A stretch of DNA of 64,000 nt. Source: Natrarchaeobius chitinivorans (lineage in GTDB: Archaea; Halobacteriota; Halobacteria; Halobacteriales; Natrialbaceae). The stretch spans positions 1-64,000 of the forward strand of contig NZ_REGA01000002.1 of assembly GCF_003841505.1 (NCBI RefSeq), written 5' to 3'. This document shows, piece after piece, positions 5,252-27,112 of the stretch. The position numbers were made by a program, and so were the translations under genes. The notes under the pieces are model-generated. The model saw nothing but the letters and a program-made list of their open reading frames with translations. It searched no databases and was not told the origin of the DNA. The number at the start of each line of letters is the position of its first letter. Position 1 is the first letter of the stretch.

Positions 5252-5575
5252 CTAGGCCGAAACTCGCGGCCCCGGCGGTGCGCGTTCGACCTGATACTCC
5301 TCGCCGTCGACGACGATGATCGCCCACTCGTAGTTCGGATCGGCGCTTTTGAGCCTCGTCTCGAGGTCGTCCGCGTCGTCCGGTTGAGCGACGAAGCAGT
5401 GAAACTGCCCCGAGGACGAACTCGGAAGCGTCCGATTCTCGAGAACTGTGTTGACGTGGACGACTTTCCACGCGCGTTCGGCCCGAAACTCCGGACCGTC
5501 TCCTTCGACGGTGTATCCGAGGTCTGCGAAAATCGACCTGGCCTGCTCGACGAGTCGCATGTTAACAGGACCCAT
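5252..5575 (-). CDS. Conserved haloarchaeal protein of unknown function (DUF7116-like)
   Basis: The 107-residue soluble protein starts MGPVNMRLVEQARSIFADLG; an ATG five codons later at 5560 is equally possible. It has alternating strands and helices and no cysteine pairs beyond a single Cys. The pattern is YTVEGDGPEFRAERAWKVV, then FHCFVAQPDDADDLETRL, then YEWAIIVVDGEEYQVER. I remember similar proteins in haloarchaeal genomes annotated as DUF7116, but the number is from memory. It is convergent with the aminotransferase, with a 7-bp gap. Confidence 0.75.
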   Translation of the reverse strand: MGPVNMRLVEQARSIFADLGYTVEGDGPEFRAERAWKVVHVNTVLENRTLPSSSSGQFHCFVAQPDDADDLETRLKSADPNYEWAIIVVDGEEYQVERAPPGPRVSA

Positions 5576-23904: not shown

Positions 23905-25161
23905 TTACCCGAGTTTCGTTCGATCCTCGGTCTCCTCGGCGTCCTCGAGGACGGCGAGACGCGAGTCTCGAAGCAGGACTTTCTTGACGATCGACGGGTT
24001 CTCGAGCAAGCGATGTTTCGCGTGCGCGCCGCGTCCGCGACCCCGTCCTTCCCGCTCGGACTGAATAACGTTGAGGAAGTTCTGTTCCTGGAGTATCTCC
24101 TGGACGCGTCGTTCCGAAAGAACGTCGAAATCGAGTCGGCGAGCGATCTCTTTGTACTGGTTGTAGATGATCTTCGTCGGAAACTCCTTCTGGCTGCTGT
24201 TTTCGGTAAGCAGTGTCAGCGAGTAGAGGATCGCCTTCGCCTGTTGGGGAGAACCCTCGATCAGTTCGTTGAACCTATCGGCTTCGGTCTTCTCTTTGGC
24301 GTCTCGGACGTGCTCTGCCGTTACACGGGTATCCGTTCGCTTTTTCGCGATCCGTCCCGCGTTGCGGAGGATATCGATCGCTTTCCGCGCGTCGCCGTGT
24401 TCCTGTGCGGCGAGTGCAGCAGTCAGCGGGATTACGTCGTCCGAGAGAACCCCATCGTGAAACGCGTCCCGACGCTTCTCGAGAATTTCGACGAGTTGAT
24501 TGGCATCGTACGGCGAAAAGACGAGTTCGTCGCGCGAGAGACTCGACTTGACCCGTTCGGAGAGGTGATCTGGAAAGTCGATCTTGTTCGAGATTCCGAT
24601 GATGCCGATGCTCGAGTTCGAAATCCGTCGGTTCTCCCCCGCCCGAGAGAGTTTCCGGAGGACTTCGTCGTCCTCGAGCATATCGATTTCGTCAAGGATA
24701 ACGATCGTGACGTCGGTACAGCGGTCGACGGCCTGCCAGAGCCGTTTGTAGTAGTCGCCGGTGCCGAGTCCTCGGTCGGGAACGGAGACCCCGCTTTCCG
24801 TCGAGTCGTTGACGATCTGGGCGATCGTCTTGATGATCGACGCCTCCGTGTTCTGCTCGCCACAGTCGATGAAGGCGTACTTTACCGTGACGTCGTCGCG
24901 TTGAGCCTCGGAAATCACTCGCTTGGTGACCGACCGCGAGATGAGTGATTTGCCGGTCCCCGTCTTGCCGAAGATAAACAGGTGGTTGGGCTCGCTCCCG
25001 AAGATAGCCGGGTTCATGGCGTCCGCGACTCGTTGCATCTGCTCGTCGCGTCCGACGATTCGGTCGGGACCGGGCAGGTGCGTGATCTCGAGCAATCGCT
25101 CGTCTGCAAACACCGGATCGTCGTACCGAAAGAGGGGATCACGTTCGTCGTTGGCGGACAT
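23905..25161 (-). CDS. Orc1/Cdc6-type replication initiator
   Basis: The 418-residue protein is an AAA+ ATPase with C-terminal winged helix. The N-terminal PGPDRIVGRDEQMQRVADAM is the family entry motif. Walker A is FGKTGTGKSLISRS near residue 66, Walker B VTIVILDEIDMLEDDE near 150, sensor 1 IGISNKIDF and sensor 2 GDARKAIDILRNAG. The C-terminal half is the DNA-binding winged helix (KIIYNQYKEIARRLDFDVLS). It should recognise origin DNA; the upstream 1.2 kb carries inverted repeats consistent with an origin. Which paralogue this is cannot be decided from the sequence. Confidence 0.96.
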   Translation of the reverse strand: MSANDERDPLFRYDDPVFADERLLEITHLPGPDRIVGRDEQMQRVADAMNPAIFGSEPNHLFIFGKTGTGKSLISRSVTKRVISEAQRDDVTVKYAFIDCGEQNTEASIIKTIAQIVNDSTESGVSVPDRGLGTGDYYKRLWQAVDRCTDVTIVILDEIDMLEDDEVLRKLSRAGENRRISNSSIGIIGISNKIDFPDHLSERVKSSLSRDELVFSPYDANQLVEILEKRRDAFHDGVLSDDVIPLTAALAAQEHGDARKAIDILRNAGRIAKKRTDTRVTAEHVRDAKEKTEADRFNELIEGSPQQAKAILYSLTLLTENSSQKEFPTKIIYNQYKEIARRLDFDVLSERRVQEILQEQNFLNVIQSEREGRGRGRGAHAKHRLLENPSIVKKVLLRDSRLAVLEDAEETEDRTKLG

Positions 25162-25213
25162 TCCAGTGTCCCACGTCTTTCAACCGGACTGGTATAAAGG
25201 TATAGGGTTCGAT

Positions 25214-25229
25214 CGCGGATGTAAATTCC
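25214..25229 (+). repeat. ORB-like partial repeat E
   Basis: CGCGGATGTAAATTCC at 25214-25229 shares the core with the copies at 25571, 25911, 26013 and 26064. It is the closest to the Orc1/Cdc6 start and lacks the GGGGACACACC half. Confidence 0.45.
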
Positions 25230-25459
25230 ACTGGTGAGCAGCTAAACCCACTGTTTTGGTCATATCGGTGGAGTGAGTGTCGAATCGCCCACATCGCGCT
25301 TGTGACCACGGGTTTGGGGACCGATCGATGGAACCGCTCGTGCTGATGTTGTGCATCGTCGACGCACGAGCACGACCGTCCGGTCGTCCCACCTGCAATC
25401 CGGTACGAGCAGACAGCGCCGGTCGTTACAGCGGTAGCGAGGCGAAATCCCTCCCCTTC

Positions 25460-25524
25460 ACAGTAGTTGCTGATTCGATCAGGAAAGTCAGTGAGGATTG
25501 AAGTCTCGTATCAGCAACTACTGT
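25460..25524. repeat. Perfect 15-bp inverted repeat in the origin region
   Basis: Arms ACAGTAGTTGCTGAT (25460-25474) and ATCAGCAACTACTGT (25510-25524) are exact inverses separated by 35 bp. Confidence 0.9.
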
Positions 25525-25570
25525 TTAGGGGTGGGAGGAGGTCAATATCGGTCGAAACGCATCCCACGCT

Positions 25571-25594
25571 GACACCCCCCTCGCGTATGTAATA
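25571..25594 (+). repeat. ORB-like repeat A
   Basis: The copy reads GACACCCCCCTCGCGTATGT followed by AATA. It matches the larger copies, with CACCCCCCTCGCG shared with the copy at 25911. Confidence 0.6.
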
Positions 25595-25848
25595 CAAAAC
25601 CGTACGCAGGCTATCTCTACGGTATGCGCGATATTTCCACAGTGCGCGGGCTATCTTCACCAGCGACGATAGGTCGGCCATTTTTCTCCAACCGCTTCCG
25701 GAGCGGAGTGTGTGTCAGAGAGCCACGGACGAAAACAGACGGGAGTGGCTCGCTCGAGCGATCGGTAGTCCCACGCTCTGGTTTGCACACCGAACGTGGT
25801 GATTGGCATCCGAAATGGTGATTGTCCCAATGTGGGCGTGGGCGTAGC

Positions 25849-25912
25849 GACCGTCGATGGCTACTATCAGTACGGATGCTGACCGTCGATGGCTACTATC
25901 AGTACGGATGCT
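25849..25912 (+). repeat. 32-bp tandem duplication in the origin region
   Basis: Two adjacent identical units, each beginning GACCGTCGATGGCTACTATC, occupy 25849-25880 and 25881-25912, directly before ORB-like copy B. Confidence 0.9.
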
Positions 25913-25944
25913 CGAGGGGACACACCCCCCTCGCGGATGTAACG
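25911..25944 (+). repeat. ORB-like repeat B (full length)
   Basis: A 34-bp element starts CTCGAGGGGACACACCCCCC and ends CGCGGATGTAACG. Its reverse complement is matched at 26064-26097 with 30 of 34 positions identical, so B and C form a convergent pair. Confidence 0.7.
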
Positions 25945-26012
25945 TCGAATCCGTGGGGTGGGGCCGAACAGACCAGCAATAGAGGTCAAGTGGCGAACTA
26001 TTTCGAGCGTAT

Positions 26013-26035
26013 TTACATCCGCGATGGTGGTGTGT
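26013..26035 (-). repeat. ORB-like repeat D
   Basis: On the minus strand it reads ACACACCACCATCGCGGATG then TAA, matching the ACACACC..CGCGGATGTAA core of copy B. Confidence 0.6.
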
Positions 26036-26063
26036 TGCGAAACAGTACTACCGTACGAAACAC

Positions 26064-26097
26064 CGTTACAAACGCGAGGTAGGTGTGTCCCCTCGAG
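26064..26097 (-). repeat. ORB-like repeat C (full length)
   Basis: On the minus strand it begins CTCGAGGGGACACACCTACC and ends CGCGTTTGTAACG. It differs from copy B at 4 of 34 positions (two doublets) and is in the opposite orientation ~120 bp away. Confidence 0.7.
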
Positions 26098-26347
26098 GCG
26101 AGTTCGCCAACAGCTTGTACGACGGACGGCGGCCGGTTGGTACGGTAGTCAGTGACGAACCGATAGCAACGGCCCGATGATACCGTCATTCTAGATTTCT
26201 TACTAGATACCTAGTCGAGTCAGAGACAGAGAGAGGACAGACGAAGAAACACCAACACGCTCACGAACTCGACGCGTACCGGCTTCGACGTCCGCTCGAT
26301 CGGAAAACCGAAACCGGTAACCGATTCTCGGTCCGATTTCGAACCGA

Positions 26348-27112
26348 ATGTGCGAGCAGTCGCCCGCCGCCGATCCGTCAGCGCAATCCGCAGCTCCAGC
26401 CGTTGCAGTCGTCGACGCTCACTCGCCGGGTAACGTCGGGACGATCGCGCGAGCGATGAAGAACTTCGGATTCGAAACCCTCCTGCTGGTCGACCCACCC
26501 GACCTCGATCCCGACGGCGAGGCGTACGGGTTCGCCGGTCACGCTCGAGAGGACGTGTTGCCGAACGCGACGGAGATCACCTTCGACCACCTCGTCGAGA
26601 CCTATCACACGATCGGCTGTACGGCAGTCACGAACGAAGACGATCGCAGTCACGTCCGGTTTCCGTTCTCGACCCCCGCCGACCTCGCCGACCGGCTTCC
26701 GACCGTCGAGGCTCGAACGGCGCTCGTCTTCGGCCGCGAGCGCGTCGGTCTCACGAACGACGAACTGGCCCGAATCGACGAGATCTGTTCGATTCCGGCG
26801 AGTTCGGAGTATCCGGTTCTCAATCTGGGACAGGCAGCCACGGTTACGCTGTACGAACTCCGCACGCTCGCTTTGGGTGACGCCACTCAGCTTCCCGACG
26901 TCGAACGAGTCCGTGCATCACCATCGAGTGAACGACGACTCTACGGCCAGTGGGAGACACTGCTCGAGGAACTCAACCACCCGGAGGAAAAACGGGAGAA
27001 AACGATGCGAATGATCCGACGCGTCTACGGCCGGGCTGATCTGACCGAACGCGAAGCGAACACGTTCATCGGACTCCTGCGGCGAGCGGCCGAGCGGCCG
27101 GACCTCGAGTGA
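26348..27112 (+). CDS. SPOUT-class RNA methyltransferase, TrmJ/TrmH type
   Basis: The 254-residue protein is a SpoU/TrmH-family 2'-O-methyltransferase. The SAM-binding knot is recognised by AHSPGNVGTIARAMKNFGFE near residue 26, ALVFGRERVGLTNDELARID near 129 and SEYPVLNLGQAATVTLYELR near 152. Archaeal TrmJ methylates C32 (or U32) of tRNA. The C-terminal ~80 residues form a helical dimerisation-like tail. It reads away from the presumed origin and follows it by ~250 bp. Confidence 0.9.
   Translation: MCEQSPAADPSAQSAAPAVAVVDAHSPGNVGTIARAMKNFGFETLLLVDPPDLDPDGEAYGFAGHAREDVLPNATEITFDHLVETYHTIGCTAVTNEDDRSHVRFPFSTPADLADRLPTVEARTALVFGRERVGLTNDELARIDEICSIPASSEYPVLNLGQAATVTLYELRTLALGDATQLPDVERVRASPSSERRLYGQWETLLEELNHPEEKREKTMRMIRRVYGRADLTEREANTFIGLLRRAAERPDLE

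Follow-up and report, generated by a model that had tools for sequence, protein, structure and literature searches.

Does the non-coding DNA beside an orc1/cdc6 gene of Natrarchaeobius chitinivorans serve as a chromosomal replication origin, as a first-pass annotation of the window (the whole 64,000-nucleotide stretch of DNA analysed) had proposed from its inverted ORB-like repeats? We find that positions 25200–26100 are very probably a chromosomal origin of replication that depends on Orc1, and one of several origins in this genome of the Natrialbaceae. The proposal of a candidate oriC is supported by initiator-linked inverted ORBs, C/G tracts and conservation, but the locus is not oriC1.

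The stretch in question (25162–26347; 1186 bp) lies between a full-length orc1/cdc6 gene on the minus strand, which directly adjoins it, and a divergent SpoU/TrmJ-like gene, and it holds no convincing gene, in keeping with its earlier description as 1.2 kb of non-coding DNA upstream of the initiator gene. The orc1 product contains the Pfam domains Cdc6_lid (8.5e-26) and Cdc6_C (1.2e-21) and is homologous to the Orc1 structures 2qby_A and 2v1u_A, from Sulfolobus and Aeropyrum. Upstream of orc1, the stretch carries five copies of one box, ACACACCnnnnTCGCGnnTGTAA, which are placed among the other features as listed here.

23905–25161, minus strand: orc1/cdc6 gene for the initiator (418 aa, with AAA+ ATPase, Cdc6 lid and C-terminal winged helix)
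25193–25199, minus strand: orc1 TATA box (CTTTATA on the minus strand), aligned in relatives
25212–25226, plus strand: ORB element 1, a half-box that lacks the C/G tract and lies beside the TATA box, 53 bp ahead of the orc1 ATG
25422–25553, no strand assigned: inserted repeated element with inverted arms (25448–25478 and 25506–25536) and an 85% identical copy elsewhere
25566–25596, plus strand: ORB element 2 (matrix score 29.6 bits)
25849–25912, plus strand: 32-bp perfect tandem duplication, in this genome only among the fetched loci
25911–25944, plus strand: ORB element 3, which forms the left arm of the convergent pair (44.4 bits; matches element 5 at 88% in inverted orientation)
25953–25965, plus strand: G-rich tract directly inside element 3, with a G-run in 49/49 sequences
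26013–26035, minus strand: ORB element 4, inside the convergent pair (23.4 bits)
26064–26097, minus strand: ORB element 5, which forms the right arm of that pair (35.5 bits)
26348–27112, plus strand: SpoU/TrmJ-like RNA methyltransferase gene (Pfam SpoU_methylase), the divergent neighbour

Elements 3 and 5 face each other at a core-to-core distance of 144 bp: the TGTAAC ends point inward and the C/G tracts outward, and this polarity is the same as that of the classical boxes at oriC1 of the same genome. The G-string CACCCCC (GGGGGTG on the other strand) is found in elements 2 and 3, is weaker in elements 4 and 5, and is absent from half-box 1. The repeats described in the first-pass annotation are borne out almost to the base: the two opposed 34-nt arms at 25911–25944 and 26064–26097 are 88% (30/34) complementary, shorter copies are found at 25213–25224 (+), 25572–25592 (+) and 26013–26035 (−), CGCG..TGTAA is common to all box copies, and both a 15-bp perfect inverted repeat (25212–25226 and 26011–26025) and a 32-bp perfect tandem duplication (25849–25880 and 25881–25912) are present. 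One amendment concerns the copy placed at 25214, which is a genuine box copy but only a half-site, located at the orc1 promoter.

The number of box copies at this locus is far beyond chance. TCGCGKATGTAA occurs five times in the 4.57-Mb genome, four of them in the window stretch, while the fifth copy (C20:24242), inside what we read as a serpin-like coding sequence, looks like a chance match; all four genomic occurrences of ACACCNNNNTCGCGNNTGTAA lie in the window stretch, and its reversed control pattern has zero matches in the genome. A weight matrix trained on the relatives' elements 2, 3 and 5, with the window sequence left out, assigns the four full boxes the scores listed above, and the next best site in 400 kb of contig reaches −1.6 bits. 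Matches in 19 viral contigs, considered as a possible spread of the box to viruses, are single in each contig, form no cluster and look like background.

The same specificity extends to other genomes, where the box follows the initiator. Within the 145 genomes of the class examined, an orthologue of at least 81% identity is present in 32 of the 37 from the same family; members of two other families have orthologues that are 64–74% identical, next to which the box is kept, and below these there is a gap down to about 52%. In 30 genomes chosen for testing out of the 145, the box is present in all 17 with the orthologous initiator and in none of the 13 without it. Nearly every box site (57/58) adjoins an orc1 orthologue or, in genome G064, lies just across the start of the circular record, the sole exception being G046:C3:4739. 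The gene context at the window locus consists of folP, trmJ, DUF7504 and HEAT repeats, and the SpoU/TrmJ-like gene is adjacent to the orc1 orthologue in 43/48 Natrialbaceae; at loci L056–L059 the folP/trmJ neighbours are gone and the initiator and boxes are still together. The motif is a variant that belongs to one initiator family, in line with the earlier guess of a lineage variant. This linkage fits the published rule by which ORB sequence and initiator family are coupled in haloarchaea (PMC3528665).

These findings bear directly on the possibility that the boxes are chance or mobile repeats that merely happen to lie near orc1. An inserted repeated element and a local tandem duplication do occur in the stretch, but the boxes lie outside both, and their strict conservation, scored with the relatives-only matrix, together with the co-occurrence just described refutes this explanation, which we regard as vanishingly improbable. 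The insert itself (25422–25553, arms of 31 nt) sits between boxes 1 and 2 and looks like a small non-autonomous transposable element: a 129-bp copy, 85% identical, is found at C7:5656–5784, about 0.9 kb upstream of another orc1, and other matches are to its ends only, with the left end resembling C1:41194, C13:44144 and C1:18729. The inverted repeat at 25448–25536 belongs to this repeated insert and was rejected as an origin element, as was the tandem duplication as a part of the origin, which has no match in any fetched relative locus.

One scan of genome contigs yielded 71 loci with relatives of the initiator, and the arrangement of the boxes recurs in the 48 Natrialbaceae orthologues, so that the conservation of the motif beside orthologous orc1 genes, which the first-pass annotation had named as a check, is confirmed. 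The box order is ++--- in 38 and +--- in 8, with two variants found once each, and the consensus of element 3 in the 48 relatives is GGacACACACCCCCgTCGCGtaTGTAACG, the other elements being element-specific variants. The distance from element 3 to element 5 is 145.3 bp (SD 2.1, range 137–148), and element 4 sits 52–56 bp from element 5 in the 40/48 relatives where it matches the pattern, whereas the distance from element 3 to element 2 varies from 77 to 602 bp, which identifies a rigid core in a region that is otherwise free to change. The insert and the tandem duplication of the window fall in such free segments, as expected for this partition. Since the orthologues are kin, these counts are not independent events, yet other spacings in the same region drift freely.

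Element 1 has a constant place of its own. It lacks a C/G tract, lies directly upstream of the TATA-like sequence, and is found 52–53 bp from the orc1 ATG in 46/48 relatives; TTTA[TA][TAC] is present 24–40 nt upstream of the ATG in 46/49 sequences, window included. Because the position of the half-box is fixed, these alignments suggest that Orc1 acts on its own promoter. A broader version of this idea is that the boxes are all operators, through which Orc1 regulates the transcription of orc1 and trmJ in the way that the non-initiator Sulfolobus Orc1-2 acts at its targets; the half-box at a fixed distance beside the orc1 TATA box, and the location of the stretch between divergent genes, would fit. 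We consider this quite unlikely, as only the half-box is tied to the promoter, while the convergent pair, with its fixed spacing, lies 300–500 bp away from orc1 in most relatives and is kept when trmJ is not the neighbour, and there are replicons on which the orthologue is the sole Orc1.

Those replicons provide the best indirect evidence that the module, understood as an origin, can drive replication, by virtue of their persistence. Two complete circular plasmids of Haloprofundus, NZ_CP083665 (48.5 kb) and NZ_CP083670 (49.3 kb), have as their sole Orc1, by tblastn with nine Orc1 queries, an orthologue of 64–65% identity, which is near ParA and accompanied by matching boxes; no initiator domain was detected in the nine hypothetical-annotated proteins among ten scanned from NZ_CP083665. 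The 417-kb NZ_CP101160 of Natronosalvus amylolyticus likewise has the orthologue (81.5%) as its only Orc1 match, and its boxes show the same distances of 54 bp, 145 bp and 53 bp. An Orc1 titration site, comparable to the region rich in boxes that lies downstream of Haloarcula hispanica cdc6E, with the real origin elsewhere, is highly improbable: titration by boxes is known (PMC3936714) and several boxes are present here, some outside the core pair, but the geometry of the convergent pair is that of an origin core, and the genome has no other box location, which leaves nothing else at which the Orc1 of the window could initiate.

A different question is whether the locus, although an origin by structure, is dormant and held in reserve, firing only if other origins fail. 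Some predicted haloarchaeal origins are dormant (PMC3528665; PMC4595724), the genome holds over ten orc1-like genes, and large-scale GC skew is absent. The first-pass annotation had named a GC-skew inflection as a further check, and at genome scale we find none: the five genomes tested, which share synteny, show a step (−0.020 to −0.028 at 25 kb) that is local, does not extend beyond about 25–50 kb, and is gone by 100 kb in the four that have sequence on both flanks. On contig C2, cumulative GC skew peaks at 26246, a position to which we attach little weight since it has just 25 kb on one side. Dormancy is also compatible with the behavior of Natrinema sp. J7 predicted oriC9, carried by the vector pFJ5, which replicated but transformed at <10 cfu per microgram (PMC5350488). 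Its cdc6, about 1230 nt as deduced from a table, equals the Natrinema gari, pallidum and altunense orthologues in length, and its 914-bp intergenic region compares with 893–942 bp in the Natrinema orthologues, so that it is a probable counterpart of the window locus, matched by size only; unlike here, just one ORB was counted there. If it is indeed the counterpart, its low transformation would also count against the origin reading itself, together with the lack of a genome-scale skew switch and the weak AT enrichment of the core spacer. Set against dormancy, it was proposed that the dormant origins of Haloferax were acquired recently and vary in their context, whereas the window locus is conserved across the family, mostly in synteny, and some relatives have a replicon with no other Orc1 system. 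We therefore judge a dormant origin to be unlikely, though far from negligible.

The composition of the core was examined for G-rich tracts and for AT-richness. A G-run is found inside element 3 in 49/49 sequences, compared to a shuffled mean of 27.9, and inside element 5 in 38/49, compared to 11.9, although the latter is missing in the window. The core is 43.9% AT against 37.7% for the window, with no pronounced AT block, and the core spacer averages 45% AT over relatives; being only mildly AT-rich, the spacer offers no clear unwinding element.

For the origin that we favor, we infer that Orc1 from the adjacent gene would bind the boxes, its winged helix reading TTACAnnCGCGA and its AAA+ domain the G-tract, by analogy with solved Orc1-ORB complexes. 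The convergent boxes at 25911–25944 and 26064–26097, with their G-tracts outward, probably define the core at which MCM would be loaded and the DNA unwound, with the internal box and the G-rich tract assisting there and the remaining boxes perhaps tuning occupancy. The half-box at the orc1 promoter, the most interesting detail of the locus and possibly autoregulatory, would probably let Orc1 control its own transcription. We tentatively propose, as possible rather than probable, that it is a switch bound by the winged helix alone, which couples initiator supply to the occupancy of the full boxes, and that the rigid 145-bp pair and the third box form a family-wide assembly platform. Such a switch would be the archaeal counterpart of the DnaA boxes in the dnaA promoter; a literature search found no archaeal case of such a promoter half-box arrangement among the titles and abstracts listed, and the proposal yields a specific hypothesis on archaeal initiator autoregulation that can be tested.

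Comparison with known systems gives good support to an ordinary kind of origin, a further member of the known haloarchaeal class with family-specific ORBs, for which origin function was shown in Haloarcula hispanica and Haloferax mediterranei (PMC3528665; PMC3936714; PMC4595724). Like the orc/cdc6 origins of Wu et al. (2012; PMC3528665), the locus is intergenic and upstream of orc1, with inverted G-string boxes of initiator-linked sequence; unlike them, its box family is unmatched to the named families oriC1, oriCa and oriCb, and the consulted text of that paper mentions neither a pair fixed at 145 bp nor a half-box at the promoter. Haloarcula hispanica oriC1-cdc6A shares two inverted G-string ORBs with G-rich tracts directly inside the pair, where a G-rich inverted repeat acts as an enhancer (PMC3936714), but its initiator family and box are different, and the oriC1 homologue of the present genome is on contig C8. 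Sulfolobus oriC1 with Orc1-1 (ORB2-DUE-ORB3) likewise has convergent boxes, between which MCM is thought to be positioned (PMC12141716); its box sequence is different, and the window locus has no strongly AT-rich DUE. The locus would add a second, well-delimited family of origins, separate from oriC1, whose box is precise, whose geometry is fixed and which most Natrialbaceae examined share, and the joint inheritance of box and initiator, also on replicons where this is the sole Orc1, makes it a clean natural system for the problem of keeping several initiators and origins apart.

The window locus was also considered as the ancestral oriC1 and rejected; it is one of several origins and distinct from oriC1, which maps to C8. 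The C8 locus has classical ORBs (CCCCCACCCCTTCGTTTCAGGTGGA) and a divergent GTPase, with PolD DP1 and a signal-peptidase-like gene in the vicinity; its initiator matches Sulfolobus Orc1-1 (2qby_A) with 365 bits, compared to 214 bits for the window Orc1. Neither the classical ORB (TTCCAGTGGAAACGAAGGGGT type), from which the box here differs, nor the PolD DP1, GTPase and signal peptidase context is present at the window locus; a divergent GTPase has been described at the major origin of Natrialba magadii (PMC3403918). The C8 initiator (L094:6817–8601) is 594 aa long, with a long AAA+ insertion relative to the 386-aa Sulfolobus protein.

Other orc1 genes of the genome carry different boxes, e.g., ACACACCCCATTTCCGGTGGAA on C13 and ACACCCCCCGTTTTCGAGTTGTAAG on C23. 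In at least four more orc1 genes (L095–L098; on C13, C7, C7 and C23) each gene has its own box of the same build, ACAC and a C-tract followed by a gene-specific half, so that several distinct initiator-box codes seem to coexist in one cell. The surroundings of the orc1 on C23 are another strong origin candidate, with a 28-bp perfect inverted box pair (L098:4912–4939 and 5274–5301) 334 bp apart and further box copies on both sides of the gene. Downstream of the orc1 on C5 are tandem 30-bp repeats (L099:4099–4472), which may be coding.
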